Shown: positions 8,205 to 63,667 of the stretch, one piece after another | Numbering within the stretch: position 1 is the first letter of the stretch | Layout: the number at the start of each line of letters is the position of its first letter | IMG/VR virus record: IMGVR_UViG_3300034022_000723 | Location: 52,520-116,519 of that record | DNA from: a virus | DNA: 64,000 nucleotides | Reading direction: 5' to 3' (one strand) | Program-made: the position numbers and the translations under genes | Notes under the pieces: model-generated | What the model saw: only the letters and a program-made list of their open reading frames with translations | The model's database searches: none | What the model was told of the DNA's origin: nothing

Positions 8205-8231
8205 TTTTTCATTTATTTTCATTATATTATC
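8205..8231 (+). promoter_or_regulatory. Promoter-like element, TTTTCATTT / TATATTAT class
   Basis: A TTTTTCATTTATTTTC block followed by ATTATATTATC, ending four bases before the ATG at 8236. The same layout precedes 13448, 38683 and (more loosely) 33268 and 57223. The short distance suggests a leaderless mRNA. Confidence 0.5.
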
Positions 8232-8235
8232 ATTA

Positions 8236-14535: not shown

Positions 14536-14536
14536 G

Positions 14537-15637: not shown

Positions 15638-15640
15638 TTT

Positions 15641-18266: not shown

Positions 18267-18272
18267 ATTATT

Positions 18273-18848: not shown

Positions 18849-18851
18849 ATT

Positions 18852-23392: not shown

Positions 23393-23393
23393 A

Positions 23394-24095: not shown

Positions 24096-24098
24096 ATT

Positions 24099-24662: not shown

Positions 24663-25270
24663 ATCTTATAATAATTTTCTTTTAAATCGTTTTCATTAAT
24701 GTATTTTATTTTCTTCATAATTACTTGATAACCAACGTGTAATATTTCAATGTATTTGTAGTAAGAATGGTTGAAAGAATCCACTGCGGTCCTAACCTGT
24801 AGATATTTTTCTTGTTCCCATCCACCACCATAGTCATCGAATATAATATAACCATTTTCTTTCAGACAATAAAATGAATTAACAGAATCTTCCAAAACAT
24901 AATTGGACATGTGATTACCATCAACATATATCAAATCTAAAAATTCCTTTGATTTACCATTATGTTTGAATTGTTTAAAACTATCCGAGGACTCACCTAA
25001 TAGATATGTTAATTTATCTTTATATGGATTAATATTATTTTCAATAAATTCGTTAGTATTAATATCCATAATATAGTGATGTGAACCTTCTTTTTTACAA
25101 AATTCTTCTAATATGTATACAGAAGATCCACCATATAATGCACCAATTTCTAAAGTAATGTTGGGTTTATCTTTTAATGAACTAAGTATTTCTTCCCATA
25201 TAGTAATGTGGTCGGTAAAGAACATTCTTTCTTCAGGATATTTGAAATGTTTTGGATATTGATAACTCAT
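24659..25270 (-). CDS. SAM-dependent methyltransferase (class I)
   Basis: 203 residues. LEIGALYGGSSVYIL, HHYIMDINTNEF, DLIYVDGNHMSNYVLEDS and GYIIFDDYGGGWEQ match the Methyltransf_24/TylF-like group that methylates sugar hydroxyls. It is related in layout to the gene just downstream but clearly different in sequence. Overlaps its neighbours by four bases. Confidence 0.8.
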   Translation of the reverse strand: MSYQYPKHFKYPEERMFFTDHITIWEEILSSLKDKPNITLEIGALYGGSSVYILEEFCKKEGSHHYIMDINTNEFIENNINPYKDKLTYLLGESSDSFKQFKHNGKSKEFLDLIYVDGNHMSNYVLEDSVNSFYCLKENGYIIFDDYGGGWEQEKYLQVRTAVDSFNHSYYKYIEILHVGYQVIMKKIKYINENDLKENYYKI

Positions 25271-25887
25271 AATGTACTATAATAATTGTTTTGTTTTTCT
25301 TGTCTTGATATTGTTTTATGATGTTGGATACAATATTCCTCGTCTAAAGGTAAAGATGAGAATTTTTGACCACCTATTACTCTTTCGTGGACCTTACCAT
25401 ACCAACTCATACCTTTACGAAATATACGTCCTTGTGCATCAGGGAAGTTAACCCATCCCTTATCGTTAACTCTCCATCCCCATTTGTTTATGTGTTCTTG
25501 GGTTAAACCATCTACAGTGTTAATACGAGGAACAAATATTAAATCCACATCAGGATTCATTTCCAACATTTGATTTATATTTTTAACCATATATTCACTA
25601 ATCATTTCATCGGCATCTATTTGATAGATGTAATCACCCGTACAATAATCATTTAATTTGTTTTTCCAATTGGCAAAGTTACCTTCAAAATCAAACCCTC
25701 TCCACGTTTGAACGTGAGGGAATTTATTATATGGTAGTAAGAAATCCAATATTTCAGGGTTACCATTCTTTTCATCATATAAAATAACAATCTCATCTTC
25801 CTTTCTTTTATGTTCAAATAAAAATGAAACCAATCTTTTTATTTCTTCTAGTTCATTACAAACTGTAATTGCAAAACTTATTTTCAT
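25267..25887 (-). CDS. GT2-family glycosyltransferase
   Basis: 206 residues. SFAITVCNELEEIKRLVSFL is the GT2 N-terminal strand-helix, and YIQIDADEMI carries the D-A-D metal site. EEYCIQHHKTIS lies near the end. This type often adds a core sugar to LPS or phage glycans. It lies one base after the small FRFFHG-motif gene. Confidence 0.82.
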   Translation of the reverse strand: MKISFAITVCNELEEIKRLVSFLFEHKRKEDEIVILYDEKNGNPEILDFLLPYNKFPHVQTWRGFDFEGNFANWKNKLNDYCTGDYIYQIDADEMISEYMVKNINQMLEMNPDVDLIFVPRINTVDGLTQEHINKWGWRVNDKGWVNFPDAQGRIFRKGMSWYGKVHERVIGGQKFSSLPLDEEYCIQHHKTISRQEKQNNYYSTL

Positions 25888-25888
25888 A

Positions 25889-26131
25889 TTATGCTCTTTG
25901 TCCTCCGTTTATTCTACCCGTTAATATATTTACTACTTCGTTGTCTATTTCTTCCACAATTTGTTCCGACATTAATCTCGTTAATTCAGCCTCAGCATCA
26001 ATTGAGTAAACGGTATTTAAATCATCAACCAATTCAGGTCTCCATTGAGCACGTAGTGTTCTAACAATATTCTGAATACCTTCCGATTGAATTGTTATCC
26101 CATGAAAAAATCTAAACTCTCTAACTCCCAT
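25889..26131 (-). CDS. Small FRFFHG-motif protein, possibly capsid-related
   Basis: 80 residues from the ATG at 26131, two bases downstream of the preceding stop; an upstream alternative would overlap. It starts MGVREFRFFHG, one of the F-K/R-F-F/L-x-G motifs repeated at the ends of many small proteins in this window. The C-terminal half (AELTRLMSEQIVEEIDNEVVN) resembles a helix seen in phage major capsid-type proteins (recollection, low certainty). It is lodged within the glycan island. Confidence 0.6.
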   Translation of the reverse strand: MGVREFRFFHGITIQSEGIQNIVRTLRAQWRPELVDDLNTVYSIDAEAELTRLMSEQIVEEIDNEVVNILTGRINGGQRA

Positions 26132-26132
26132 A

Positions 26133-26378
26133 TTATTGTTTTGGTCTAGCATAAAACTTAAATGTTTTACCAGTGGTGCTGTCGGTAAAAGTCATTATTG
26201 ATTGGTTTGTGTTAGGTATTGTAATAACAACTTCAGGTCTTTCTACCGTTTCATCTGCGGTTGCAAAAATCTGAGGTTCATCATTATCAAATTGAACAAC
26301 CCATTCACATGGCATGTACTTGATAATAGTGTTTTCAATTTGAACTTCCTCTTTTTTCTTTTTTGTTGACTTCGCCAT
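26133..26378 (-). CDS. Hypothetical phage protein
   Basis: 81 residues: a lysine-rich start (MAKSTKKKKEEV) followed by a beta-rich part (WVVQFDND, VVITIPNTNQSIMTF, KTFKFYARP). No domain recognised. It is paired with the FRFFHG gene and may belong to the virion rather than to the glycan pathway. The next base after its start region is the stop of the GT4 gene upstream. Confidence 0.6.
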   Translation of the reverse strand: MAKSTKKKKEEVQIENTIIKYMPCEWVVQFDNDEPQIFATADETVERPEVVITIPNTNQSIMTFTDSTTGKTFKFYARPKQ

Positions 26379-27629
26379 TTATTTAACTCTATTTAATTTA
26401 GGTAGTATCAGTTTAGTTTGTTGTGGTATAGTAATGAATGGTGTTAATATACTTTTAAATTTTTCTATCATTTTACTTAATGAAAAATTATTTTTATTTT
26501 CTTCTTTTAATATTTTAGATTTAGTTAAAAATTTATTATAATCTTTTTTAACTAATTTTAAAACCTCAACCACCTCATTGTAATTAGCGGTAAACCATTT
26601 AGAACCTTTAATTATAAAAGTATCAACCGCACTATCATCAACTTCAGTTAATTTACCACCAACCATGATTGAATTATTGATAGACAAAAAATCTTTATGA
26701 CCTGACCAGTTAGATGCGATTACAGGTTTACCAGTCATAGTGAACTCTAATAGAGGTCTACCGAATCCCTCACCTTTAGTAATTGATACCATTGATTTAA
26801 TTTTAGGATGATTATATAAATCGTTCATTTCTTTATTAGTTAAATCACCAAATAATAAATAAATAGAAGGTGGATTTTTTATATCACCAACAATTTCTTT
26901 TATTTTTTTCCTAAATGATTCTCTCTCTTTTACTGAAAAATTAGCGGAAGATGTTTTAAGAACTAACGCGGGTTTATCTTTTTCATCTTTAAATGATTCC
27001 ACAAAACATCTAATTAACATACCAACATCTTTTCTATCTTGACCAAGGTTACCCTTTAACCAATGACCAACAAAAAGATAAGCAAAATTTTCTTTGATAT
27101 CTAATTTAAAATCTTTATTAATTACATCATTATAAATTGATATGTCCGCACCTTCAAATAAAACCTCAATAGGTTTTTCTATTTTATGTTGTTTTAATAG
27201 TTTATCACTATCTTTTTCTTTTTCATCATATACTGTTGATAAAAGAACTTCTTTAGAAAAATTAGATGTTGCAATGATTAAATCCATTCTATTACAACCA
27301 TCAACCCAATCTTTAGGTGCAATGGTTGTTTCAATACCGGCAGTTATACCAATGTTAAATTTACCAAATCTTCTAAATTCATTTGGTACTGTAACTTGAA
27401 CGTAAATTTCGGGCAAACCCTCAAAAGAATTAACAATATTACTTTCAATCCACTGATGAAATAAATTGTCTTTTTCTAATGCGGTCATTGGTGTTGAACC
27501 CCACACACAACTATCAATTTTAATATCAAACATATTCATTTGATATAACGATTCTAATAAATCTCTTGAATGTGAACCATATCCACTTCTTGTTTTAATT
27601 GGTCCTCTAAATAATAACGTTGGTTTCAT
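26379..27629 (-). CDS. GT4-family glycosyltransferase
   Basis: 416 residues. FRGPIKTRSGYGSHSRDLL is the acceptor-side glycine loop of GT4 enzymes; YLFVGHWLKGNLGQDRK, VSITKGEGFGRPLLEF and GKPVIASNWSGHKDFL form the nucleotide-sugar site with the E-x7-E pattern. Related in layout to the next gene upstream, with which it shares one base. Confidence 0.88.
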   Translation of the reverse strand: MKPTLLFRGPIKTRSGYGSHSRDLLESLYQMNMFDIKIDSCVWGSTPMTALEKDNLFHQWIESNIVNSFEGLPEIYVQVTVPNEFRRFGKFNIGITAGIETTIAPKDWVDGCNRMDLIIATSNFSKEVLLSTVYDEKEKDSDKLLKQHKIEKPIEVLFEGADISIYNDVINKDFKLDIKENFAYLFVGHWLKGNLGQDRKDVGMLIRCFVESFKDEKDKPALVLKTSSANFSVKERESFRKKIKEIVGDIKNPPSIYLLFGDLTNKEMNDLYNHPKIKSMVSITKGEGFGRPLLEFTMTGKPVIASNWSGHKDFLSINNSIMVGGKLTEVDDSAVDTFIIKGSKWFTANYNEVVEVLKLVKKDYNKFLTKSKILKEENKNNFSLSKMIEKFKSILTPFITIPQQTKLILPKLNRVK

Positions 27630-28987
27630 TAAACTATTTTATATAAATTAAATCTTTCACGTGGTGTGAATTTTTTTATTGTTGTCTCAATACCTTCACT
27701 CATAGCATCACACATTACTTTTGATGACAGGTTTTTAATTGCAAATTCCCTTCCTTTCAAACCGTTATGTTTTCTTAATTCTTTATCTGTCGTATATATT
27801 TCCATTATTTTACTCGCAACTTCTTCATCGTTAACTCTATCGTCAAATATGTAAGGAGTAATAGGTGAACCATTTATGTTAATTGCTGATGGCCAAACTG
27901 GTAAAACCCATTCACCGTGTCGGGTATGGTTATGTTTCTTTTTATTACTTAATGTTTCAATATCAATATAATCATCTGCAGTATAATCAAATCCACATTG
28001 GTCTTGTAATCCACCAGTAATATTAACAATAATAGGTGTACCCGCCATTATACTTTCCGCAGTACCCAAACCAAATCCTTCATTACTTGCAATGTTAACA
28101 GTACAATCGGCAATGTTATATAATTCATTTAACTTTTCGGCTTCAATTTTATTAGTTGAGAATACAACATTGTAATCAGGACACAATTTATCTTTAACAG
28201 CATATAAATCAGTACCATTATTATCTATTGGTGTTGTATGTAATAACAAGACACATTTATCCGAATCTTCTTTTGACAATTTATCACAAAATAATCTATA
28301 AGAATAAATTAAATCTGATGTTTGTTTTCTTCTAATGTTTCTACTGTTATAAAATAACACGAAACTATATTCTTTATCACCAAACAATTGTTTCTTGGTT
28401 TCTGTTAAATCAATATCTAATGGTTTGAAAACGTTTGGATTAATTCCATGTGGAACATAACTAACTTGCCAATCTTCTAATGGTTTACGAATACCATCGT
28501 CCATTTTACCCACACGATTAACAATACCATAAGTTAATTTAGAAATACATCCTAACCAATCACAACTTTCGTAGTAATCTTTATTATATGATGGATCAGG
28601 AAGATTATCCCAAATATGATAATAAAGAATTGGAACTTGTTGTCTAATCTCGTGTTCATTATCATACAACCATTGCCAATAATGAGGGTCGGTGAAATGT
28701 AATATGGCGTCTATCTTTTCTTCTTTAAGAATTGTCCTTAAAACATTAATATCCCCATAACCATTATATGGTATGATTTTTAATTCGGCATCTTTAACAC
28801 CAGTTCTTTTTCTCACATCATCATTACAATCAACAAATTTACCGGTTTCGGGGTGATTAATACCTGCGCCTAATTGTATCCAATTAAACCTATCAACGGT
28901 ACCCATTACGAATTCTTTAGACATTGTTGAAATACCTGAAGTCATTCGTAAATCGTCCGATAATAATAATATTCTTTTTTTACCCAT
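27629..28987 (-). CDS. GT4-family glycosyltransferase
   Basis: 452 residues from the ATG at 28987, which gives the usual start MGKKRILLLSDDLRMTSGIS; a start six codons earlier would overlap the regulator gene. SGISTMSKEF, VPHGINPNVFKPLD, LFYNSRNIRRKQ and IASNEGFGLGTAESIMAGTPIIV are GT4 motifs. It probably uses an NDP-hexose donor. It is the first large gene of the island, directly after the ribbon-helix-helix gene. Confidence 0.88.
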   Translation of the reverse strand: MGKKRILLLSDDLRMTSGISTMSKEFVMGTVDRFNWIQLGAGINHPETGKFVDCNDDVRKRTGVKDAELKIIPYNGYGDINVLRTILKEEKIDAILHFTDPHYWQWLYDNEHEIRQQVPILYYHIWDNLPDPSYNKDYYESCDWLGCISKLTYGIVNRVGKMDDGIRKPLEDWQVSYVPHGINPNVFKPLDIDLTETKKQLFGDKEYSFVLFYNSRNIRRKQTSDLIYSYRLFCDKLSKEDSDKCVLLLHTTPIDNNGTDLYAVKDKLCPDYNVVFSTNKIEAEKLNELYNIADCTVNIASNEGFGLGTAESIMAGTPIIVNITGGLQDQCGFDYTADDYIDIETLSNKKKHNHTRHGEWVLPVWPSAININGSPITPYIFDDRVNDEEVASKIMEIYTTDKELRKHNGLKGREFAIKNLSSKVMCDAMSEGIETTIKKFTPRERFNLYKIV

Positions 28988-28988
28988 A

Positions 28989-29186
28989 TTAATATTTTGA
29001 TCCACTCACAGATAAATCTGTGTAATTATTTATTTTATTTCTAAATGATTCGTCTTTGACGTAAAGGTCTAATGTACGATTAACTAATTTTTGTAAGTTA
29101 ATATTACCATCAATCGCATTTATCTTAAATTTTCTGTAAACGTCTTCCAATATATGGACACTCGTTAATTTTTTTTCTACTTTCAT
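28989..29186 (-). CDS. Ribbon-helix-helix (CopG/Arc-like) regulator candidate
   Basis: 65 residues from the ATG at 29186. A basic beta strand (KKLTSVHIL) is followed by two helices (EDVYRKFKINAIDG, NLQKLVNRTLDLYV), the RHH layout. Such proteins bind DNA as dimers and often repress their own operon. It is the promoter-proximal gene of the minus-strand island with a TATATTTG box three bases before its start, so it may control the island (inference). Confidence 0.6.
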   Translation of the reverse strand: MKVEKKLTSVHILEDVYRKFKINAIDGNINLQKLVNRTLDLYVKDESFRNKINNYTDLSVSGSKY

Positions 29187-33267: not shown

Positions 33268-34668
33268 ATGGATTTATTATTTTCGTACTCCCAACAAAAG
33301 AAGGATAAGAATAGAAAGAGAGATGAATCAATTAGTGAATGTTTAATTAGATTACACAAACACAATGATGAACTTACATATGAAGGTATTTTTGATTTTG
33401 ACTACGATAGATATGGTACACCAAGACATGTAACGTTCGAACACAATTTAATTGTTAATTTAATCACTGGTGATGTTTCGGTAAAGTATGAGATTAAAAA
33501 TAATGTTAATATCGATGAAAAAATATTTAGAAGTACAGATCAAAACAAAAAGAATGATTTTAAACTGTTGTTTGATTTAATTGAAAATGGAATTGCTCGA
33601 GGAGAAAAACGTAGAGGTTATTGGGGGGTCAAATATGAGAGATCAGTTGATAAAATATGTGACATTTTTATCCAACAAATACAACCAAAATTTAAATCAC
33701 AATTTCTTAAAGATAAGAACTATAAATTAAAACCTTTTTACAATACTATCTATGATATGTTAGTTGATTATCATTTAGACATAAAAGGTATTAAAGGACA
33801 CAACGCGGTATATTATGATATCCAAAATGATTACCCAAAAAAGAAATGGTTGGACAAAAACGATAATAAATTTCTACCGGCAGTTTTAGATTATTATGGT
33901 ATTAAATCAAAATATCTAATAAAAGAATTGAGTCAGAACGTTAGACAAATTCAAATCAGTACATTAAATTATTTCTGTAAGTTATTCGGTGACAATCACG
34001 TTGAATACTTAAAGAAATTTATTTGGGAAATACATTGTTATGATACCCCACCCAACAAAAAAATACATTATTTAAAGAATGAATCTGAAAAAGATTTTTT
34101 AGTTAAAGTAATTAATGATTGGGAAATAGACACAATTAAAACAGATTCGTTAATTTATACATTAAATAAGTTATTTTCAATTAGAGATTTGTTAGAACAA
34201 AGAGGAGTTAATCTTAAATTTAAGGCAAAAAACGATGTTGAATTTGATAATATTATGGAGACATGGTCAGGATTAAAATTACATTTCGCACGTGGATATA
34301 AAGTAAGATATCTTATACCTGAAGATTTTGTGAAAGAAATGGAAGAAGATATTGTGATTGATGAATTAGTATTTAAACCCAAATTATTATTAACAGAAGA
34401 TGATTTTAGAATTGAAGGATTTAATATGAAAAATTGTATGTCTAAACAATTTGCACACGGAGTCGTTTACATATTCGCATCATTGCAACATAAAAGGAAA
34501 AGAATTAATTTACAATACAGAAAGGGTAATTTAATACAGTCCTATGGTAAGGCCAACACACCGGTTATTGAGATATTTGAAGAGGCTACCAATATTTTAA
34601 CATCAAGGTTTAAGAAGTACCCAACGATAGAGTGGAAGAAAGACAAATATGATTTCATAACTTATTGA
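33268..34668 (+). CDS. PcfJ-like protein, short paralogue
   Basis: 466 residues. The C-terminus echoes the upstream paralogue: LTEDDFRIEGFNMKNCMSKQFA replaces the EGRFMHHC core (the first His of HHC is Lys and the second Asn), and INLQYRKGNLIQSYGKANTP follows the same strand order. Shared features in the middle include KKWLDKNDNKFLPAVLDYYGIKSK against the relative's KNDRKLIASVLDVYQIKSK. The core motif is degenerate, so the activity may be lost or changed. Confidence 0.65.
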   Translation: MDLLFSYSQQKKDKNRKRDESISECLIRLHKHNDELTYEGIFDFDYDRYGTPRHVTFEHNLIVNLITGDVSVKYEIKNNVNIDEKIFRSTDQNKKNDFKLLFDLIENGIARGEKRRGYWGVKYERSVDKICDIFIQQIQPKFKSQFLKDKNYKLKPFYNTIYDMLVDYHLDIKGIKGHNAVYYDIQNDYPKKKWLDKNDNKFLPAVLDYYGIKSKYLIKELSQNVRQIQISTLNYFCKLFGDNHVEYLKKFIWEIHCYDTPPNKKIHYLKNESEKDFLVKVINDWEIDTIKTDSLIYTLNKLFSIRDLLEQRGVNLKFKAKNDVEFDNIMETWSGLKLHFARGYKVRYLIPEDFVKEMEEDIVIDELVFKPKLLLTEDDFRIEGFNMKNCMSKQFAHGVVYIFASLQHKRKRINLQYRKGNLIQSYGKANTPVIEIFEEATNILTSRFKKYPTIEWKKDKYDFITY

Positions 34669-37582: not shown

Positions 37583-37993
37583 ATGGCGTATTCAGAAAAA
37601 GTTTTAGATCATTATTCCAATCCACAAAATGTGGGGACATTAGATAAGTCCAAATCAAACGTAGGTACCGGATTGGTTGGGGCTCCCGAGTGTGGTGATG
37701 TGATGAGATTACAAATAGAAGTAATTGATAATATTATTGTTGATGCAAAATTCAAAACATTTGGATGTGGTTCAGCAATTGCATCTTCATCTGTAGCAAC
37801 TGAATGGTTAAAAGGAAAGAGCGTCGATGTGGCATTGACAATTGATAATATGGATTTAGTGGAAGAATTAAATCTACCACCGGTTAAGATTCACTGTTCA
37901 GTTTTAGCTGAGGACGCTATTAAATCTGCAATAAACGATTATAGGAAGAAACAAGGATTAGAGGAAATAATCTTTGACGCTTCACATGTATAA
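37583..37993 (+). CDS. iscU: IscU-like Fe-S cluster scaffold protein
   Basis: 136 residues, full length for IscU. The three cluster ligands C37, C62 and C105 and D39 are all present, within GAPECGDVMRLQ, FGCGSAIASSS and LPPVKIHCSVLAEDAIKSAI. The LPPVK loop (98-102) is the site the HscA chaperone grips in bacterial IscU, and its retention suggests use of the host chaperone. IscU receives sulfur from IscS and builds [2Fe-2S] clusters; no cysteine desulfurase gene is in the window. It is followed closely by a ferredoxin and an IscA-type carrier. Confidence 0.92.
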   Translation: MAYSEKVLDHYSNPQNVGTLDKSKSNVGTGLVGAPECGDVMRLQIEVIDNIIVDAKFKTFGCGSAIASSSVATEWLKGKSVDVALTIDNMDLVEELNLPPVKIHCSVLAEDAIKSAINDYRKKQGLEEIIFDASHV

Positions 37994-38006
37994 AAAAAAA
38001 TAAATT

Positions 38007-38315
38007 ATGAGTTTTATTATTGGAAGTAGTTGTGTTGATTGTATGGATACCGCATGTGCAAATGCATGTCCGGTTGATTGTATTCACGGACCAATAAATG
38101 TTGAAGGTTCAGGTTCAGAAGTGGGTGAACAAGGTAAAGATGCGTTCCCTGGTGGACAACTTTATATAAACCCTGACACTTGTATCAATTGTGGTGCATG
38201 TGTTCCTGAGTGTCCTGTTAGCGCTATCTATGAAGATGAAGATTTAGCAATTAAGGCTGGCGAAGAAGAATACGTTCATAAAAATTACGAGTTCTTTGGT
38301 TTAAAATACAATTAA
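38007..38315 (+). CDS. Ferredoxin with two [4Fe-4S] motifs
   Basis: 102 residues. Two cluster-binding sets are seen: CVDCMDTACANACPVDC near the start and CINCGACVPECP in the middle, an Alvin-type arrangement with a spacer between. It is 13 bases from iscU and one base from iscA, so the three appear to be a unit. It could supply electrons for cluster assembly or for the radical SAM enzyme. A second ferredoxin of the same layout lies at 46112. Confidence 0.92.
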   Translation: MSFIIGSSCVDCMDTACANACPVDCIHGPINVEGSGSEVGEQGKDAFPGGQLYINPDTCINCGACVPECPVSAIYEDEDLAIKAGEEEYVHKNYEFFGLKYN

Positions 38316-38316
38316 A

Positions 38317-38646
38317 ATGGTTACAGTTTCGGACAAAGCACTTGAACACGTTGTTGAGTTGATGACGGAAAAAGGAATAACACCTGACACCCATTTTCTT
38401 CGTGTTGGAGTTAAAGGAGGTGGATGTAGTGGTTTATCTTACGCTATGGATTTTGACGATAATGTAACAGATATGGATGAAGTCGTTGATTTAAACGTAT
38501 TGAGGGTGATTATAGATAAAAAATCACTTTTATATCTATATGGCACTGAATTAGATTATTCTGATGGATTAAACGGAAGGGGTTTTAATTGGATTAATCC
38601 GTCGGCGAGCCGCACTTGCGGATGTGGAGAAAGTTTTGCTCTCTAA
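38317..38646 (+). CDS. iscA: A-type Fe-S carrier (IscA/ErpA/HesB)
   Basis: 109 residues with the three conserved cysteines C37 (GGGCSGLSY), C101 and C103 (TCGCGESF). A-type carriers pass clusters from IscU to client proteins. It is the last of the iscU-ferredoxin-iscA set. Marine phages are known to carry lone IscA homologues; an accompanying scaffold and ferredoxin is much rarer as far as I know. Confidence 0.92.
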   Translation: MVTVSDKALEHVVELMTEKGITPDTHFLRVGVKGGGCSGLSYAMDFDDNVTDMDEVVDLNVLRVIIDKKSLLYLYGTELDYSDGLNGRGFNWINPSASRTCGCGESFAL

Positions 38647-43773: not shown

Positions 43774-43803
43774 AATCCTCACAGAAATGTGGGGATTTTT
43801 TTT
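43774..43803 (+). terminator. Intrinsic terminator
   Basis: AATCCTCACA pairs with TGTGGGGATT (one G-T pair) across a GAAA loop, followed by eight T. It ends the 410-residue gene's transcript. The T-run merges with the upstream side of the next promoter. Confidence 0.85.
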
Positions 43804-43810
43804 GTATTAT

Positions 43811-43841
43811 TTTGTATATTCAAAAACATTTCATATCTTTG
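43811..43841 (+). promoter_or_regulatory. Host-type promoter, leaderless
   Basis: TTTG at 43811, 19 bases, TATCTTTG at 43834-43841, then five bases and ATG (43847). Close to the Bacteroidota -33/-7 consensus. Confidence 0.75.
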
Positions 43842-43846
43842 TTGGT

Positions 43847-44260
43847 ATGAATATATTACTAATAATTTTTCTAATATTGGTTTGGGCAACCTCATCAGTA
43901 TATGTGATGTATTATCATAATAAACATTACACATTAGGTTTGGATATGGTAATAGGTGCAATATTGTTAGGACCAATATTGGCTTTAATAGTAGGAAAGG
44001 ATGTTGAAGAGAAGAAGAAATATTATGGGGTAATGGAACAGGAGAGTAATAATAGACATAGAGGATGGTTTAGAACAATGTCAGAAATTAATAGACAACG
44101 AATGACAAGTTTTGGTAGATCCATTCCACCTCCACCACCTATATCACGAATTGAACGAGCACAATTAGAAAGAGATGAAGCAATTAGGTCAGCAAGAGAA
44201 AGAGTAGATAAAAATAAATTAAAAGACTTCAAATTTTTGAGGAGTAATGTTAAAGATTGA
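43847..44260 (+). CDS. Small membrane protein with C-terminal FKFLR motif
   Basis: 137 residues from the ATG at 43847. An earlier in-frame ATG at 43787 lies inside the terminator and promoter and is rejected. Two hydrophobic helices (ILLIIFLILVWATSSVYV, MVIGAILLGPILALIV) are followed by a long polar helix (RIERAQLERDEAIRSARE). It ends DFKFLRSNVKD, a C-terminal example of the FKFF-type motif seen at the N-termini of other small proteins. Overlaps the phosphoesterase gene by 14 bases. Confidence 0.65.
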   Translation: MNILLIIFLILVWATSSVYVMYYHNKHYTLGLDMVIGAILLGPILALIVGKDVEEKKKYYGVMEQESNNRHRGWFRTMSEINRQRMTSFGRSIPPPPPISRIERAQLERDEAIRSARERVDKNKLKDFKFLRSNVKD

Positions 44261-46111: not shown

Positions 46112-46429
46112 ATGAGTTATATTATAGGTAGTAAGTGTGTTAGTTGTATTGATGGGTCTTGTTTAAAGGTTTGCCCTGTTGATTGCATTAACGGACCTAT
46201 CGATGTAAAAGGTATGGGTAAGGAATCTATTGGTATGACTGAAGAAGAAAAAGTTGGTAAACAATTATATATTAACCCTGATGTGTGTATTGATTGTGGT
46301 GCATGTGTTCCTGAATGTCCTGTGGGTGCCATTCATTCAACTGAAGAATGGGCGATTAAGGATGGTGAGTTAGAGTATGTACATAAGAACTATGAATTTT
46401 ACGGACAAACATACAAACATAGAAAATAA
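46112..46429 (+). CDS. Ferredoxin with two [4Fe-4S] motifs (second copy)
   Basis: 105 residues, a paralogue of 38007: YIIGSKCVSCIDGSCLKVCPVDC and CIDCGACVPECPVGAI, with the same VHKNYEFYG ending. Cluster cysteines are all kept. Unlike the first copy it has its own host-type promoter, so it may be made early, separately from the iscU set. Possible electron donor for the radical SAM enzyme or Fe-S assembly. Confidence 0.92.
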   Translation: MSYIIGSKCVSCIDGSCLKVCPVDCINGPIDVKGMGKESIGMTEEEKVGKQLYINPDVCIDCGACVPECPVGAIHSTEEWAIKDGELEYVHKNYEFYGQTYKHRK

Positions 46430-53910: not shown

Positions 53911-54303
53911 ATGAAAAGATTTGTATTCTTCCACGGATATCAAGAATTACATCCACTATTGGATATTGATTGGGATGCAATCAACAGATTGAATAACATC
54001 AATACTATTCTTACTCCAAATTGGGGTGGAATAACGTATACACCTACTTGGGTTGTTAATCCAGGTCTCATTCAATACACACCACCAAACTATACTATAA
54101 CCACAACACCCGGCACTGGTACATTTACAATTCCATACAACGGTACAATTAACACAGCAACAGGGTATAGTTTAACAACATCAAATCCAAACGGAACAAC
54201 ATATACAACAACAGGAACAGTTACAACAGGAGGAATAGGAGGAACTTTAACAACTGGTACTGCAACATTTAGAAGTGGAGCATTTACCTCAAAATTTATG
54301 TAA
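53911..54303 (+). CDS. FVFFHG-motif protein with Thr/Gly-rich tail
   Basis: 130 residues. It begins MKRFVFFHGYQ, one of the FKFF-x-G motif heads. The second half is Thr/Gly/Asn-rich with repeats (TTTPGTGTF, TYTTTGTVTTGG), typical of phage fibre or decoration proteins. A good Shine-Dalgarno-like GAAAGGA lies five bases before the ATG, unusual for this window. Confidence 0.6.
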   Translation: MKRFVFFHGYQELHPLLDIDWDAINRLNNINTILTPNWGGITYTPTWVVNPGLIQYTPPNYTITTTPGTGTFTIPYNGTINTATGYSLTTSNPNGTTYTTTGTVTTGGIGGTLTTGTATFRSGAFTSKFM

Positions 54304-54743
54304 TGACTAAATTCAAGTTTTTCAGGGGGTATATTGGAACGTTAGATATAATGGACGGACAAACATATGCGACAGCATCATTATATTACCCAAGATTAGA
54401 TTCCAATAATGAAATGGAAAGATGGTTTGCCGAACGTGATTTACAAACTATAACTCATGAACAATACATGTTGAATAGAGACATGTTAATTGAACAAGAA
54501 AGAATAAGAAGATTAGGAATGATAAATCATTCAAGGGAAACTGATAATCAAATTAGATTGTTTCAAGCAACAACAACGGTAACCGTAAATCCAACACCAT
54601 GGACTAAGGTTAAGATATTTGGAACAAGAGTTAAATTGGTTTTAATTGAAACTTGGAAGTTGGAACCTATCGGTGTTGTGGTGATGACACTGTTAGTGTC
54701 AGTTGTTACATTCATAGGTGTAATGAAATTATTCGGAACATGA
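54303..54743 (+). CDS. FKFFRG-motif protein with C-terminal membrane helix
   Basis: 146 residues beginning MTKFKFFRGYIG. The middle is polar and helical (ITHEQYMLNRDMLIEQERIRR), and the end is a transmembrane helix (PIGVVVMTLLVSVVTFIGVM). So the motif head is on the soluble side of a tail-anchored protein. It shares a base with the previous gene's stop and overlaps the next by four. Confidence 0.6.
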   Translation: MTKFKFFRGYIGTLDIMDGQTYATASLYYPRLDSNNEMERWFAERDLQTITHEQYMLNRDMLIEQERIRRLGMINHSRETDNQIRLFQATTTVTVNPTPWTKVKIFGTRVKLVLIETWKLEPIGVVVMTLLVSVVTFIGVMKLFGT

Positions 54744-55060
54744 TAAAACCATTCAAATTTTTGACGGATAATGATGATGATATGTCAGAAGGATATATCA
54801 ATTTAGAAAATGTAGAGATAGCTTCTTGGATGTGGGAAAGTCTAATGGAACCATCAGATGCGACGTACGATATTGTTTCGGTGGACACTAACGGTATTAT
54901 TGAATTTTTAAGAATGTTTCCATCACAAATGGTAATTCCTGTGAGTTCTATCGTTGGTCCAAATGGTGTGGTTCATAATAGCGAAAACGAAGGAAATGGG
55001 TGGGGATTTAACATTCAAACAGACCCAATTCATATTACATATTTAAGTTACACCCCATAA
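54740..55060 (+). CDS. FKFL-motif small acidic protein
   Basis: 106 residues from the ATG at 54740 (ATGA overlap with the preceding stop); in-frame codons further upstream lie inside that gene. It begins MIKPFKFLTDNDDDM. The rest is mixed and acidic with no known domain. Third member in a row of the FKFF/FKFL-headed proteins. Confidence 0.6.
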   Translation: MIKPFKFLTDNDDDMSEGYINLENVEIASWMWESLMEPSDATYDIVSVDTNGIIEFLRMFPSQMVIPVSSIVGPNGVVHNSENEGNGWGFNIQTDPIHITYLSYTP

Positions 55061-57222: not shown

Positions 57223-58065
57223 GTGGAAAATATTTGTAATAAGAAAATAATTAATTTTACTCCGACAGGTACGCAAACTACTCGTGAAAATTCATACGCT
57301 CCATTATTACCAAATGAGATAATTGAGGATGTTCATGAGGCAAATGAATTAGGAATTTCAATTGTTCATTTACACGCTAAAGATGAGGAAACATTAAAGA
57401 ATACATATAAAAAAGAAACCTATCAAAAAATAATAGAAGGGATAAAAAAACATTGTCCTGAATTGTTAATTTGCGTTTCATTAACTGGTAGAAACTTTCC
57501 CGAGTTAGAGAAAAGATCTGAGGTGTTGCAATTATATCCTGATATGGGTTCTTTAACAATGTCATCATTAAACTTTCCAACTGGTACGGCAATTAACGAA
57601 CCTGAGATGATTTTATCATTGATAAATGAAATGGAAAAGTATGGAGTACAACCCGAAATAGAATGTTTTGATTCTGGTATGTTAAATTATACAAATTATT
57701 TAATATCAAAAAATATATTAAATCCACCGCATCACATCAATGTTATATTGGGAAATATTTACAACGGACAATGTGATTTGAATACACTTTCATCAATTAA
57801 AAATAAGACACCAAATAATTCATATGTATGTTTAGGTGGAATAGGTTCGCAACAATTAAAGAGTACAACATATGGTCTGTTAGATTTTGACGGAATAAGG
57901 ATTGGACTTGAGGATAATCTTTATTATAGAGACAAAGAAAAAACAACAAACATAGAGTTGTTAAAACGAACACATAGGATAATGGATGAATTAGATATGT
58001 TTCACTACACATCAAAAGAATTAAAAGAAAAAGGATATGGAAACAGACATAGTAATATTAGGTAA
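57223..58065 (+). CDS. BKACE-family (beta-keto acid cleavage enzyme, DUF849) protein
   Basis: 280 residues from GTG. NFTPTGTQTTREN, then ISIVHLHAKDEET with the zinc-binding His-x-His, LICVSLTGR, DMGSLTMSSLNFP and PEIECFDSGML fit the TIM-barrel BKACE family. Known members condense or cleave beta-keto acids with acetyl-CoA. A phage copy is unusual. It overlaps an acyltransferase and is followed by an aminotransferase and two glycosyltransferase-like genes, so it may make an acyl or keto building block for a modified sugar (inference). Confidence 0.78.
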   Translation: MENICNKKIINFTPTGTQTTRENSYAPLLPNEIIEDVHEANELGISIVHLHAKDEETLKNTYKKETYQKIIEGIKKHCPELLICVSLTGRNFPELEKRSEVLQLYPDMGSLTMSSLNFPTGTAINEPEMILSLINEMEKYGVQPEIECFDSGMLNYTNYLISKNILNPPHHINVILGNIYNGQCDLNTLSSIKNKTPNNSYVCLGGIGSQQLKSTTYGLLDFDGIRIGLEDNLYYRDKEKTTNIELLKRTHRIMDELDMFHYTSKELKEKGYGNRHSNIR

Positions 58066-58672
58066 AGGAGATGCAATTGTTTGCATGATTTTAGATAACT
58101 TAAATTCCAATGGTATTTACGGTAATATATCAATCTACAATAATTTATCATTACCCATATTGAGAGAAATAAGTCATCCCGATTTTAATTTAGATGTTCG
58201 TGAAGATGTTGACATTAAACAATTTAAGAAATATGTTTTAGGTGTTTATGACCCTAAACATAAAATTAAAATTATTGAAACATTAAATCCTGAAATAAAA
58301 AAATTTCAAAGCATTTTATTTAATGATTTAGTAATTTCTAAAACATCTACAATAGGTATAGGATGCTTAATTGATGCAAATATTTCAATTGCGGCACATA
58401 CTAAAATCGGTGATTTTGTTTCAATAAACAGAAATGTATCAATTGGACATCATTGTAATATTGGAAAGTTTGTTTCAATAAATCCTGGCTGTAATATCGC
58501 CGGAAATGTTAACATAGGTGAAGGGACATTAATTGGTATGGGAACTAATGTTTTAAACACAGTTCAAATTGGTAAAAATACAATAATTGGTGCGGGATCA
58601 AACGTAACAAGAGACATTCCTGATAATGTTGTTGCATATGGTAACCCATGTAAAATAATAAGAAATAATTAA
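58037..58672 (+). CDS. NeuD-like sugar acyltransferase (left-handed beta-helix)
   Basis: 211 residues. An N-terminal Rossmann-like part (DIVILGKGDAIVCMIL) is followed by hexapeptide repeats (IGIGCLIDANISIAAHTKIGDF in parts, VNIGEGTLIGMGTNVLN, IGKNTIIGAGSNVT, VVAYGNPCKII), the layout of PglD/NeuD acetyltransferases acting on amino or sialic-type sugars. It overlaps the BKACE gene by 29 bases. Confidence 0.88.
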   Translation: METDIVILGKGDAIVCMILDNLNSNGIYGNISIYNNLSLPILREISHPDFNLDVREDVDIKQFKKYVLGVYDPKHKIKIIETLNPEIKKFQSILFNDLVISKTSTIGIGCLIDANISIAAHTKIGDFVSINRNVSIGHHCNIGKFVSINPGCNIAGNVNIGEGTLIGMGTNVLNTVQIGKNTIIGAGSNVTRDIPDNVVAYGNPCKIIRNN

Positions 58673-58673
58673 T

Positions 58674-59327
58674 ATGGCACAAGGAGTACATAAAATAACT
58701 GAAGATTTTGAAAAGTCACTATGTGACTACACAGGATCCCCACATGCAATTGCGTTGGACAATATGAGTAATGCATTATTTTTAGCATTATATTATGAAA
58801 AAAATATAAAAAAAACATTAACAAGTGACAGTGTAGATTGTCCATCTAAAACATATCCATCTGTTCCTTGTGAAATAATTCATGCTGGACTTAAAGTTAA
58901 TTTTATTCCTGTGGAAGGAAAAACAATTAAAGGTTCATATAGATTATCACCATCTAATGTTATCGATTCGGCATTAAGTTTTACCGCTAATATGTATCAA
59001 TCAGGAACACATATGTGTTTATCGTTTACTGGACCATATAAAACCTTAAAATTAAGTAAAGGTGGTGCAATTTTAACTGATGACTATGATGCAATGTTAT
59101 GGTTTAAAAGAGCAAGATTTAGTGGTAGAAGAGAATGTTCTTACCATGATGATAATTTTGATATGTTAGGTTGGAATTTTTATATGATGCCAGAACTTGC
59201 GGCAAGAGGGTTATTAATGATGAGTCAATTTTATAACTTGGATGGAACAAAAAAACAAAACGAGGATTTGGAATTACCATATCCTGATTTATCTAAATTT
59301 GAAATATATAAAAGTAAAAAAATATGA
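58674..59327 (+). CDS. Compact DegT-type aminotransferase-like protein
   Basis: 217 residues against a usual 370-400. DYTGSPHAIALDNMSNALFLAL is the phosphate-loop region, LSFTGPYKTLKLSKGGAILT holds the PLP lysine, and RFSGRRECSYHDD the helix after it. The C-terminal small domain is missing, although the gene is intact and followed directly by the next. It may be a minimal or non-catalytic form, or work with a partner. Confidence 0.72.
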   Translation: MAQGVHKITEDFEKSLCDYTGSPHAIALDNMSNALFLALYYEKNIKKTLTSDSVDCPSKTYPSVPCEIIHAGLKVNFIPVEGKTIKGSYRLSPSNVIDSALSFTANMYQSGTHMCLSFTGPYKTLKLSKGGAILTDDYDAMLWFKRARFSGRRECSYHDDNFDMLGWNFYMMPELAARGLLMMSQFYNLDGTKKQNEDLELPYPDLSKFEIYKSKKI

Positions 59328-60076
59328 GAGTTGACCAAGTTTATGTATCTAATTCAATAAGGTTTTTCAAAGACGGTTTATTAAAAAGATATAAATTAAA
59401 AGAATATTATGACATAAATAAACCGGCTTTGTTTTTCGGACTTTCGGAAAGTAGCAACTTAATTAAAGAACACCAAGGAATTAAAATACTTTTACCGTGT
59501 ACACCAAATGATTATCCTAATATTAGTAATTATGAAAATACTTTTTTTATATGTTCGGAGAATTATAATTTACCTTATAATGTTGTTAGGAAAAGTATCA
59601 CTCCCGAGATTAAAGATTATAGTATGTTTACTCCAAATGTTTTGGGGGATAAAGTTTATTATTATAGTGGATTTAAACACGGATGGAATTGGAAAAATAA
59701 TATTATAGACGAAATACAGAAAAATATTAATTTTGAAATAATCACAACATCACATGAGAATTTAAAAGATTATTATGATATAAAACATCTTAAAGATAAT
59801 TTTTATGATAAATGTTTTTTAAATTTAAATTTTAGTGGTGGCAATGGTTTAGCAACTGTAAAGGAATTAGGATTAATGGGTAGAAAAACTGTCTTTAAAT
59901 CAGGACATAAAAATAACATACAGAGGTTGGAATTTCCCAATTTCATTAATTATTCTTCAATTGAAGATGTTATTGAAATTATTGAAAACGAAAGTAAAAA
60001 AATTGGAACAATACAACCTTCCATAGATGCGCATAATGTTGGTGATGAATGGCTTAATTTAAATTATTGGTTATAA
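59324..60076 (+). CDS. GT-B glycosyltransferase-like protein (weak)
   Basis: 250 residues. FNLNFSGGNGLATVKELGLMGRKTVF is like the donor-binding Gly/Glu/Gly turn of GT-B enzymes, shortened, but the catalytic residues are not clear. The N-terminal half is alpha/beta. Overlaps the aminotransferase by four bases, so it likely works with that cluster. Confidence 0.45.
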   Translation: MRVDQVYVSNSIRFFKDGLLKRYKLKEYYDINKPALFFGLSESSNLIKEHQGIKILLPCTPNDYPNISNYENTFFICSENYNLPYNVVRKSITPEIKDYSMFTPNVLGDKVYYYSGFKHGWNWKNNIIDEIQKNINFEIITTSHENLKDYYDIKHLKDNFYDKCFLNLNFSGGNGLATVKELGLMGRKTVFKSGHKNNIQRLEFPNFINYSSIEDVIEIIENESKKIGTIQPSIDAHNVGDEWLNLNYWL

Positions 60077-60086
60077 AATTAAAAAA

Positions 60087-61037
60087 ATGAAAGATTTAAT
60101 TGTAATAACGGCACATTGCCCAACTGAAGAACAAGAATTAGAATTGGAAAAATGTATCAACTCAGTAGTTGGTATGGACGCACATATCCTATTAATTTCA
60201 CACACTCACATTCCAATACATATACAGAAAAAATGTAATTATTATGTGTATGATTATAATAACGAGACATCAACTGACCATAATTTAATTGGATATAAAC
60301 ATTACAGATTTGACGGTAAAATAATTCAATCAAAATTTTTTCATAAAACATTTTATGGGTTTGCTATTTATAGAATGTTTTGTATTGCCAGTCAAATTGC
60401 AATAAATTTTGGTTATGAAAATATACACTACATTGAATATGATTGTGAGTTATTAGATAAAAATTTAATTAATGAAAATAGTAAATTACTTGAAAATTAT
60501 GACTCGGTAATTTATACCGATAATGGAAAAGAAAATGGGTTTTTATTTGGTTCATTTAAATCATTTAAAGTTAAAACGTTACCTGAAAATTTTAAAAATT
60601 ATAACAAATCATTTATTGAAGATGAAATAAAGAAATCTGAAATTAAACATTTGGAGTTTTTTAGTAAAAATCTTTTCACAAACTCAGGTAAAGTTTTTTT
60701 CGGTAATGAACCCTCAAACGAAAGATTTAAAAGAGGTAAATGGTTTTATAATAGAGATTTACATTATACTTTTTTTTATAATCCATTAGATAAAACTTTA
60801 AATATTTTTTATAATTCACAAAAAGATAAAATTGAAAAAATTTTTGTGATGGTTAATAATCAAAAAACAGTAAAGATTGAAATACAACCAAATTGTTGGT
60901 ATATTAAACCATTGGGTATTTTTGATGAAATAAACAATGTTAGAATAGATAATTCAGAAAAGATAATTTATGAGTTATCTTTTGATAAAGAATTTAGAGA
61001 TTTTTTTAAAATAAATTCATACATTTCAAATGAATAA
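60087..61037 (+). CDS. GT-A glycosyltransferase-like protein (weak)
   Basis: 316 residues. DLIVITAHCPTEEQELELEKC opens a GT2-like fold and NIHYIEYDCELL is a possible metal-binding acidic motif. The C-terminal 80 residues are beta-rich and may bind a substrate. The last of the five-gene cluster starting with BKACE. Confidence 0.5.
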   Translation: MKDLIVITAHCPTEEQELELEKCINSVVGMDAHILLISHTHIPIHIQKKCNYYVYDYNNETSTDHNLIGYKHYRFDGKIIQSKFFHKTFYGFAIYRMFCIASQIAINFGYENIHYIEYDCELLDKNLINENSKLLENYDSVIYTDNGKENGFLFGSFKSFKVKTLPENFKNYNKSFIEDEIKKSEIKHLEFFSKNLFTNSGKVFFGNEPSNERFKRGKWFYNRDLHYTFFYNPLDKTLNIFYNSQKDKIEKIFVMVNNQKTVKIEIQPNCWYIKPLGIFDEINNVRIDNSEKIIYELSFDKEFRDFFKINSYISNE

Positions 61038-61065: not shown

Positions 61066-61302
61066 TTAACCATTTTCATTTAATCGTTGAGTCAATTCAT
61101 TAGTTAATATACGAATCCATTCGTCTTTTGTTTTCCCATTGTATGGGTCGGGTATTTCGGTTAGACCCACGCCACGTAAACATAAAATAGTGTTCTGAAT
61201 GTGACTAGAGGTCATATAAAAAATAGGTGTATCCCGACCATTTTGAGACCTCCAACAGACATTCCTATCAAATATTTCCCCCCTTAAGAATTTAAACTCC
61301 AT
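61066..61302 (-). CDS. FKFLRG-motif small protein
   Basis: 78 residues from the ATG at 61302, which has a host-type promoter directly before it; an upstream in-frame start would overlap that promoter. It begins MEFKFLRGEIFD, an N-terminal example of the FKFF/L-x-G motif. The rest is polar with a conserved-looking DPYNGKTKDEWIRIL helix. Divergent from the 26-residue gene at 61358. Confidence 0.6.
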   Translation of the reverse strand: MEFKFLRGEIFDRNVCWRSQNGRDTPIFYMTSSHIQNTILCLRGVGLTEIPDPYNGKTKDEWIRILTNELTQRLNENG

Positions 61303-61305
61303 AAA

Positions 61306-61353
61306 CAAAGATAAGATTAATTTTGTATATTCCAAATAATATCCTTATCTTTG
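61306..61353. promoter_or_regulatory. Divergent overlapping host-type promoters
   Basis: Plus: TTTG at 61322, TATCTTTG at 61346-61353, ATG at 61358. Minus: TATCTTTG at 61313-61306 and TTTGG on the opposite strand across the shared TTTTGTATATTCCAAA block, ATG at 61302. Both -33 boxes lie in the same 16 bases, so only one RNA polymerase could bind at a time. Confidence 0.7.
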
Positions 61354-62085: not shown

Positions 62086-62274
62086 ATGGATGTATTAGAA
62101 CAATACGAAAGGTATAATAAAATATATCAGATTGAATTAAGAGAAGTTGCGACACCATATCATTTACAACTTATGAAAGAGATTGATATGTTGGAGAAAT
62201 TAACAATAGATGAATTTAAAGAAAAGTTAAACAACCCTGAATTTAAAAAGAAATATGGGACTCTCAACATTTAG
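62086..62274 (+). CDS. Hypothetical helical protein
   Basis: 62 residues, highly charged and helical (YERYNKIYQIELREV, IDEFKEKLNNPEFKKKYG). No known family. It overlaps the next gene by 20 bases and follows the previous one after one base. Confidence 0.55.
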   Translation: MDVLEQYERYNKIYQIELREVATPYHLQLMKEIDMLEKLTIDEFKEKLNNPEFKKKYGTLNI

Positions 62275-62704
62275 ATTTTTAAGGGGAATAATCAGTGCAA
62301 GAATAGTTAACATAGAAGAAAGATTAACATTAGCACAACCAAGATATCCAAGGATACCTATGGGTCAAATTCCATATCCTGAAAATTGTGAAACACCAGG
62401 AGAAAAAAGAACATTTAGATTAGGATGGAGAGCTTGTGAAAGAGGTATGGAGATACATGAAAACCTATACAGTAATCAAGAAAATTTAATTTATTCATTA
62501 CATAGAATATGGGAAAGTGGATATCTTGAATGTTTTCTTCACCACCCATCAAGACAAATACAACCAACCGATGAGGAGTCTTATCAGGAGGGATGGGCAA
62601 CCGCTCAATTAGGTCTCCCATTAAACGAAAACCCACATACATACGGGTCACATCAATTTAATATGTGGTATGTGGGGTGGAATGACTTTGTGGATAACCA
62701 TTAG
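62255..62704 (+). CDS. FRFLRG-motif protein with RMF/CrpP-like segment
   Basis: 149 residues. Head GLSTFRFLRGI. In the C-terminal half EGWATAQLGLPLNENPHTYG and MWYVGWNDF give the GW-x-A...G...NP...W-x-x-GW pattern of ribosome modulation factor/CrpP-like domains common in phages. An earlier FRLGWRACERGM is a half copy. The domain's target (ribosome or other) is unknown. Confidence 0.6.
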   Translation: MGLSTFRFLRGIISARIVNIEERLTLAQPRYPRIPMGQIPYPENCETPGEKRTFRLGWRACERGMEIHENLYSNQENLIYSLHRIWESGYLECFLHHPSRQIQPTDEESYQEGWATAQLGLPLNENPHTYGSHQFNMWYVGWNDFVDNH

Positions 62705-62708
62705 AATA

Positions 62709-62740
62709 TTTCGTATATTCAAACTAATATCTTATATTTG
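62709..62740 (+). promoter_or_regulatory. Host-type promoter, leaderless
   Basis: TTTC at 62709, 20 bases, TATATTTG at 62733-62740, four bases to the ATG at 62745. Confidence 0.65.
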
Positions 62741-62744
62741 TATC

Positions 62745-63206
62745 ATGACCGACGCTCAAATAGTAATATCAGTAATTTTTGCTGTGATATTTTTCGTAAT
62801 TCTTATCTTTAATGTGGTTTCATACCCAAACGTGAAATTATATAAAAAGAAATATGATGAGTTGGAACGCGGTGTGTATAAGTATGAACCAGCAGAACAT
62901 ACTGAATCAAATTATTTTTATCTATACAGTTATGATATTACTACCTTAACATTTACTCGCACCGATGTTGCTATTATATTCTTTTTAGATGGTGATATAA
63001 AACTAACGGATAATTCATACATACACAAAAGTCATTTGTTTATGTCGTTTGTTAAATGGTATCATTGGAGAAAGTTTCAAAAGTTAAAAGATGAGTTGGT
63101 TGAGACATATAATATTAGAAATCAAAGAGGTCGTTATGAACAATCCCATCAGGAACGATATATGAAACAACAGAACAAATTAGATTTTAAATTTTTTAGA
63201 GGATGA
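62745..63206 (+). CDS. Membrane-anchored protein with C-terminal FKFFRG
   Basis: 153 residues from the ATG at 62745; an in-frame ATG at 62670 lies inside the preceding gene and before the promoter. One N-terminal helix (IVISVIFAVIFFVILIFNVV), a soluble part with aromatic strands, then a basic helical end closing in LDFKFFRG. This is the second C-terminal copy of the motif. The last four bases overlap the next gene. Confidence 0.62.
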   Translation: MTDAQIVISVIFAVIFFVILIFNVVSYPNVKLYKKKYDELERGVYKYEPAEHTESNYFYLYSYDITTLTFTRTDVAIIFFLDGDIKLTDNSYIHKSHLFMSFVKWYHWRKFQKLKDELVETYNIRNQRGRYEQSHQERYMKQQNKLDFKFFRG

Positions 63207-63667
63207 TAAAACCATTTAAATTTTTTGAAGGTAGAATAAAAAGGTTGTATCATTATAATGCTCCGTACATATCATTGCTACGAACTCCGCCAGGTAGTTA
63301 TTACGATAGAACAATTAATCCAGATTTGTATGGTGGAGTAAGATTGAGTGAGTTATCAGATAGAGTTCAACAAATAGTGAGAAGTCCAGAATATATACCA
63401 GCAGGTTATGTTCAAGTGCCAATACCACAAACTTTTTATGATGGATTTGTTATCAGTCGTGTAAGAACTAAAATGAGACGAAATATAAGTTGGAGAGGGT
63501 ATGAAACTTCTATACAAGAAAGAAATGGTGAGGTAATAATATTAAAGATTGTAAGTGGAATTAATATTGGTGGAATGTTTCACATAGTTTATTTAATTAC
63601 AAGAGACGGGAATACTGAAAATTATAGAGTAAGTGTCCCATTAGTCAATTTACAAAGAAGAGGATAA
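63203..63667 (+). CDS. FKFFEG-motif protein
   Basis: 154 residues: head IKPFKFFEGRIKRLYHY, then a beta-rich body with many Arg and Tyr (VPIPQTFYDGFVISRVRTKM). The next motif gene at 63916 begins almost the same way (FKFFEGRPKRLYHY), so the two are paralogues over at least 14 residues. Confidence 0.6.
   Translation: MIKPFKFFEGRIKRLYHYNAPYISLLRTPPGSYYDRTINPDLYGGVRLSELSDRVQQIVRSPEYIPAGYVQVPIPQTFYDGFVISRVRTKMRRNISWRGYETSIQERNGEVIILKIVSGINIGGMFHIVYLITRDGNTENYRVSVPLVNLQRRG

Follow-up and report, generated by a model that had tools for sequence, protein, structure and literature searches.

Beta-keto acid cleavage enzymes (BKACEs; DUF849 family) were previously known mainly from breakdown pathways. 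A gene for such an enzyme that lies among sugar-modification genes in a virus raises the question as to what the enzyme does there. The locus comprises five open reading frames (ORFs), all on the + strand, at 57223-61037 of a 64,000-nucleotide stretch of DNA (the window; bases 52520-116519 of the 116,519-base IMG/VR virus record IMGVR_UViG_3300034022_000723). An earlier note, made from the letters of the window, had described a BKACE gene overlapping a gene for a NeuD-like acyltransferase, followed by a compact DegT aminotransferase; the ORFs are indeed at the positions given there and family scans agree (Table 1). We consider it reasonably probable that the locus is a phage-borne cassette for an N-acyl-amino sugar, in which BKACE supplies the acyl-coenzyme A (acyl-CoA) donor.

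The BKACE gene is linked to acyltransferase genes in viruses and bacteria

A first scan of viral contigs returned 26 with a BKACE 71-85% identical to that of the window; viral and phage counts here and below are lower bounds, and the searches may miss records very close to the window. In all 26, BKACE is followed by the NeuD-like gene in an overlapping frame, with the gene for a 316-amino-acid (aa) glycosyltransferase (GT) just upstream, while genes beyond this core mostly differ. The overlap of the two ORFs in the window is 29 nucleotides (58037-58065), and it is kept in phages and in two bacterial loci described below (L036 and L037). A wider scan gave 74 viral loci, 73 of them with a readable BKACE ORF. 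An acyltransferase gene is present at most two genes downstream in 71 of the 72 evaluable loci, mostly in an overlapping frame, as counted by reading neighbourhood tables with Pfam checks; only L302 has none, and L288 is truncated where its contig stops. The partner is of the NeuD type in most loci, sometimes with a WbqC (PF08889) or DegT gene in between, and of the GNAT type in L294-L297 and L298-L300 (Pfam-checked for L294 and L298 only). Some of these contigs are near-duplicates, and about 43 viral sequences are left at an 88% identity cut. No BKACE of this type was found in INPHARED phages.

A single query with the window BKACE gave no match in bacterial genome contigs. An alignment query of the same contigs returned 80 loci, with BKACE recovered in 78. 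The commonest neighbour families in these 78 are NeuD-type (37 loci) and GNAT-type (33 loci) acyltransferases, and in 65 loci an acyltransferase gene is on the same strand within 150 bp of BKACE (33 GNAT downstream, 17 NeuD downstream and 15 NeuD upstream, the GNAT label resting on one weak Pfam match of 15.8 bits, below the cut-off). As a control, we inspected nine other BKACEs on annotated plasmids. None adjoins an acyltransferase, the neighbours being riboflavin-type genes, genes of protocatechuate/benzoate catabolism or unrelated genes (65/78 vs. 0/9, Fisher p = 1e-6, for 78 loci that are not independent). Two bacterial loci carry cassette-like operons: BKACE-NeuD-GT in the isolate Pseudarcicella hirudinis (L036; 723-kb contig, BKACE 61% identical) and the complete BKACE-NeuD-compact DegT-GT operon in a Chitinophaga metagenome-assembled genome (L037; BKACE 58% identical). 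The earlier note did not mention that the cluster is on a virus. It had proposed a search for BKACE-NeuD neighbours elsewhere, where finding none would have counted against its reading; the result is the opposite, as most relatives do have a NeuD- or GNAT-type acyltransferase beside BKACE. Its statement that sugar pathways are not a usual setting for BKACE does not hold for this subfamily, whose members in several phyla repeatedly adjoin genes for NeuD, WbqC, DegT and sugar transferases.

In a BKACE tree of 96 rows, at least four switches of the partner from one acyltransferase type (NeuD or GNAT) to the other are seen. That BKACE stays constant while its partners have two unrelated folds would be expected if its product is the acyl-CoA that they use. 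The phage BKACEs and those of L036 and L037 form one clade (SH-aLRT 100), whose bacterial neighbours in the tree come from Bacteroidota and are for the most part NeuD-linked. The nearest phage locus, L235, has surrounding genes in common with the window, but it lacks the 250-aa protein of Table 1 and encodes another type of compact DegT (51% identical), so the cassette is shuffled around a constant BKACE-NeuD core. The arrangement is far above chance expectation, since dozens of viral contigs, whose flanks are otherwise mostly unrelated, have it as well, and so do bacterial chromosomes. Other plasmid BKACEs do occur in protocatechuate/benzoate catabolism, and the window BKACE could in principle be an ordinary auxiliary metabolic gene for acetoacetate/acetyl-CoA metabolism with coincidental sugar neighbours. 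However, catabolic neighbours are absent here, the overlap with NeuD is conserved across phages whose flanks are mostly unrelated, and the clade contains only phages and the two NeuD-linked bacterial loci, making this explanation highly improbable.

A BKACE on a Salmonella plasmid (45% identical) was considered as a marker of sugar clusters and rejected, its neighbours being riboflavin-type genes. BKACE genes on the Salmonella Karamoja plasmid pRSE21 (L028) and on a Streptomyces camelliae plasmid (L029) lie beside flavin-related genes (ribA, riboflavin synthase or rosB, gamma-glutamyltransferase and methyltransferase). This looks like a flavin-analogue gene cluster that is plasmid-borne in Salmonella.

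The cassette enzymes and their catalytic residues

The BKACE protein matches PF05853 with 201.2 bits (cut-off 24.8). Its ORF has a GTG start at 57223, and the true start is unsure because most relatives begin about six residues downstream. In an alignment with KCE, the BKACE of lysine fermentation (2y7d), the zinc ligands H49, H51 and E230 as well as R226 and D231 are invariant in 140 of 140 relatives. The ratio of non-synonymous to synonymous substitution rates (dN/dS) is 0.04-0.12 against six phages, where dS is so high that only the lowness of the ratio is meaningful; the gene evolves under purifying selection. The protein scores 173 bits against the KCE equivalog NF052387, under the cut-off of 382, and Gln18 occupies the position of KCE Glu14. 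Most phage enzymes and two bacterial ones have Gln at this position vs. Ile in most other bacterial relatives, so the phage branch probably has a substrate of its own. The KCE-type substrate, 5-amino-3-oxohexanoate, was considered and finds no support, given the Gln. Residues 3-65 also match TIGR04323 ('sporadic carbohydrate cluster') weakly, with E 0.038; we discounted this match, which is likely to be TIM-barrel background, and a literature search on that family returned nothing.

The NeuD-like protein has left-handed beta-helix repeats and matches PF00132 (Hexapep; 53.1 bits, above the cut-off), and its match to TIGR03570 (NeuD/PglB/VioB) covers residues 60-206 with 141.4 bits, below the cut-off of 160.8. 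It also matches the perosamine N-acetyltransferase PerB (E 3e-20). Its H138 aligns with the PerB active-site His that is replaced in the 4eaa and 4eab mutants, and is invariant in 67 of 67 sequences. A Pfam scan detected no PglD_N domain (PF17836) in the window protein or in those of L036 and L037; the domain is present in NeuD-type proteins of L102, L308 and Flavobacterium phage immuto.

The compact DegT matches PF01041 in two stretches (51.8 bits, cut-off 19.8). With 217 aa it compares to around 360-390 aa for full two-domain proteins, the C-terminal domain being absent. In its model (pLDDT 89.4) the protein is folded like the large domain of sugar aminotransferases of the PseC/ArnB type (Foldseek match to PseC with E 1e-8 and TMq 0.66). 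The lysine for the pyridoxal phosphate (PLP) cofactor, K123, is invariant in 27 aligned rows and aligns with K186 of perosamine synthase. We considered whether this is a broken or decayed copy, but rejected that idea: similar lengths occur in many phages (185-235 aa in 146 viral copies) and in one bacterium, and the PLP lysine is invariant. A NeuD-type gene is present in 75 of 80 viral compact-DegT loci (L116-L195), mostly adjoining, and full-length DegT replaces the compact form in phages L267 and L293 (Pfam-confirmed for L267). Half-size DegT is very common in viral contigs, with at least 567 confirmed stretches, usually beside a NeuD-type gene, and a distant half-size form is found in Synechococcus phage S-SCSM2R (L033, 8992-9579). 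As judged from their sequences, BKACE, NeuD and DegT all retain key catalytic residues and look functional.

The earlier note had also listed two glycosyltransferase-like proteins. This label stands for the 316-aa protein: it has no sequence-family match in Pfam, NCBIfam or PHROGs, but its AlphaFold model (pLDDT 86.1) has a GT-A-type fold, with Foldseek matches to glycogenin, GnTI and GT6 enzymes at E about 1e-5 to 1e-6 (best glycogenin, E 1.9e-6, with low TM-scores of 0.3-0.4). A relative adjoins BKACE in most close phage relatives. For the 250-aa protein the label is unproven, as nothing matched in Pfam, NCBIfam, PHROGs or INPHARED phages; relatives are present near the cassette in L277, L278, L304 and L305.

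Table 1 The five ORFs of the cluster with their predicted functions
Feature	Position	Strand	Evidence
BKACE (DUF849, PF05853), proposed acyl-CoA donor maker	57223..58065	+	PF05853 profile match
NeuD/PglD-like hexapeptide acyltransferase, proposed N-acyltransferase acting on an amino sugar	58037..58672	+	PF00132, PerB match
Compact DegT sugar aminotransferase, 217 aa, without C-terminal domain	58674..59327	+	PF01041, fold
250-aa protein, GT-B-like glycosyltransferase by eye only	59324..60076	+	no family match
GT-A-fold glycosyltransferase-like protein, 316 aa	60087..61037	+	AlphaFold model, Foldseek

A proposed route to an N-acylated sugar

How might these enzymes work together? The compact DegT would aminate a keto nucleotide-sugar drawn from the host or from the phage's own glycan locus. 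BKACE would convert a beta-keto acid and acetyl-CoA to acetoacetate and a non-acetyl acyl-CoA, from which the NeuD-like enzyme would transfer the acyl group onto the sugar amino group. Finally, the completed sugar would be attached by one or both glycosyltransferases to a glycan, most likely one in the envelope of the infected cell or on the virion. Within this model we infer which way BKACE runs and on what substrate, which acyl group and sugar are involved, and the final location of the glycan. NeuD/PglD enzymes take acyl-CoA donors, as established for PerB and PglD, and this favours the acyl-CoA direction for BKACE. In the window, in phages and in L037 the NeuD-like transferase adjoins both the aminotransferase and BKACE, the putative donor maker.

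The BKACE reaction is formally reversible, so that the enzyme might instead run backwards, with acyl-CoA and acetoacetate as substrates and with a beta-keto acid, later built into a sugar, as product. This is very unlikely, since none of the cassette genes encodes a protein that would obviously consume a free beta-keto acid, whereas acyl-CoA is a substrate of NeuD and GNAT enzymes. The earlier note had left open whether the cluster makes an acyl side-chain or a keto precursor for a sugar; an acyl side-chain from BKACE is well supported by the gene neighbourhood, while the keto precursor receives no support here.

Bacterial relatives provide further glycan context. NeuD-linked BKACE genes are found with DegT, WbqC and GT2 genes, and in Gillisia (L047) BKACE is encoded with a nucleotide-sugar dehydratase, a nucleotidyltransferase and DegT. 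In Trichococcus (L052) the gene is part of an exopolysaccharide-type locus with an AMP-ligase, a carrier protein, a ketoacyl synthase III, a PglD-like protein, an ATP-grasp protein and a bacterial sugar transferase. Ketoacyl synthase III, carrier-protein and ligase genes likewise accompany BKACE and NeuD-type genes in L049, L051 and L053. These Trichococcus loci are good places for learning the acyl group via polysaccharide chemistry.

Several observations weigh against the acyl-CoA cassette. The P. hirudinis operon (L036) has no DegT, and the GNAT-linked BKACEs of Flavobacteriaceae are mostly amid housekeeping genes and outside glycan loci. In addition, Phe149 occupies the position of KCE Tyr145, and Phe is present there in 140 of 140 relatives. 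DUF849 enzymes are described as converting a beta-keto acid and acetyl-CoA to acetoacetate and a shortened acyl-CoA, and the active-site Tyr has been stated to be common to all BKACEs (PMC12871164). The exception is BsfD, which acetylates a carbon atom, a change that its authors tie partly to Phe replacing the catalytic Tyr (PMC12871164). By analogy, the window enzyme could acetylate a beta-keto acid on carbon, with acetyl-CoA as the donor, and so provide a diketo product for later steps. We regard this as unlikely. The functionally unassigned DUF849 crystal structures 3no5, 3fa5 and 3chv share the Phe, so that Phe149 is not diagnostic and does not decide the chemistry; its use as proof of BsfD chemistry was rejected for this reason. 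Moreover, a diketone and free CoA would leave unexplained the tight linkage to CoA-using acyltransferases of two folds.

The Flavobacteriaceae bear on a further possibility, namely that the acyl-CoA model is right but that DegT and NeuD act on a non-sugar acceptor, such as another small molecule, a lipid or a protein. A two-gene BKACE-GNAT unit occurs at similar positions in many marine Flavobacteriaceae (L044, L054, L058 and others), with topoisomerase and pseudouridine synthase genes as neighbours, and given such housekeeping surroundings the acceptor of the GNAT-linked systems may not be a sugar. That these relatives are outside glycan loci, and that the window NeuD has no PglD_N match, would fit a non-sugar acceptor in the cassette too. 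However, the compact DegT has a fold like sugar aminotransferases, the cassette is bordered by GT genes both in phages and in L036 and L037, and the bacterial NeuD-linked cases are among nucleotide-sugar and sugar-transferase genes, and we consider a non-sugar acceptor for the cassette improbable as well.

Relation to known systems

The anthrose cluster of Bacillus anthracis resembles the window set in combining an enzyme of CoA metabolism, an aminotransferase, an acyltransferase and a glycosyltransferase to make an N-acyl sugar; it differs in being bacterial and in that its CoA enzyme is an enoyl-CoA hydratase-type protein and not a BKACE. For the individual enzymes, PerB (4ea7) has the fold and active-site His of the window NeuD and uses acetyl-CoA, and PseC and perosamine synthase (2fnu, 3dr4) share the fold and PLP lysine of DegT, but PseC-type enzymes are around 370 aa long with the C-terminal domain that the compact form lacks. 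KCE and beta-ketoadipate-type BKACEs have the fold family, zinc triad, Arg and Asp of the window enzyme; their neighbours are catabolic, and KCE has Tyr145 and Glu14 where the window has Phe149 and Gln18. BsfD (9zsc), from flavophos biosynthesis, is likewise a biosynthetic DUF849 member with Phe for the catalytic Tyr, but its phosphonate cluster has no acyltransferase (PMC12871164). It is less similar in sequence to the window BKACE than several other DUF849 structures and carries an insertion of around 20 residues.

A further parallel in gene content is the O-polysaccharide R-group locus of Flavobacterium psychrophilum, in which wfpC-G are the genes for a 3,5-dihydroxyhexanoyl group on Qui2NAc4N (PMC6519341). 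There, too, a PglD-type acyltransferase lies beside dedicated genes for a non-acetyl donor and an aminotransferase that makes an amino sugar (PMC6519341), so that dedicated acyl-donor genes beside a PglD-type transferase are already known. However, the F. psychrophilum donor is predicted to be made by ketoacyl synthases on acyl carrier protein, as opposed to the putative DUF849 enzyme here, and its chromosomal O-antigen locus has a full-length aminotransferase and no reported BKACE. The new elements are a putative donor maker from the DUF849 family, an aminotransferase of half the usual size and the location on a phage. In the open-access full texts searched, which leave most subscription journals uncovered, we came across no BKACE reported from a glycan locus or a phage.

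Among named phages, immuto (NC_055915) encodes a compact DegT 75% identical to that of the window, with a NeuD/PglD-like gene directly after it in a phage glycan cluster that has several GTs related to window GTs. It differs in having no BKACE and a NeuD that is only 28% identical and has a PglD_N match.

Other features of the window

Tail-fibre-like and peptidase/endolysin-like genes in the window fit a phage. Searches of the record with PF03237 and PF17289 did not detect a large terminase, and tblastn with the protein at 33268-34668 did not yield a named phage relative. Among named phages, immuto has the closest relatives of the compact DegT and of several glycan genes, so a Bacteroidota host appears likely. 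A second, larger glycan locus at 13888-29005 has glycosyltransferases, a full-length DegT (19697-20818) and sugar epimerase-like genes, and several of its proteins are 28-65% identical to those of the immuto cluster. It also contains a stand-alone capsid fragment, an 87-aa ORF at 25889-26152 (-) that matches positions 135-195 of Gp23 (PF07068, T4-type major capsid; 42 bits) and begins with an FRFFHG motif. At least seven small window proteins have similar (K/R)F(K/R)F(F/L)RG-like motifs close to either the N- or the C-terminus; they are encoded at 43787-44260, 53911-54303, 54303-54743, 54653-55060, 62255-62704, 62670-63206 and 63203-63667 on the + strand and at 61066-61335 and the capsid-fragment ORF on the - strand. 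The motif looks conserved as protein because the codons differ, and may serve as a signal for targeting or cleavage; none of the Pfam families accounts for it.

Eight neighbouring genes at 2887-11232 (+) end in C-terminal -KTLI or a close variant, and in several of them A/T-rich DNA such as AAAACTTTAATTTAAATG runs into the next start; the endings probably reflect a translation-start region common to these genes and not a tag on the proteins. Finally, IscU-like, IscA/HesB-like and two ferredoxin-like genes (named by eye) at 37583-38646 and 46112-46429 are a possible phage iron-sulphur assembly set. In viral locus L020, relatives of the first and third of these genes (83% and 74%) are found near the cassette.

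Implications

Taken more broadly, we give about even chances to the idea that a DUF849/BKACE subfamily found in several phyla, and common to Bacteroidota and phages, makes non-acetyl acyl-CoA for dedicated N-acyltransferases, with the phage branch decorating surface glycans with an undescribed acyl sugar via a half-size aminotransferase. A wide and so far unassigned branch of the DUF849 family would thereby gain a testable function, the supply of acyl-CoA to N-acyltransferases, and the cassette suggests that surface glycans of bacteria or phages bear a new acyl group. Its genes would be useful for the production of new N-acyl sugars, and phages that carry it could alter the host surface, with effects on receptors and competing phages, or their own particles.

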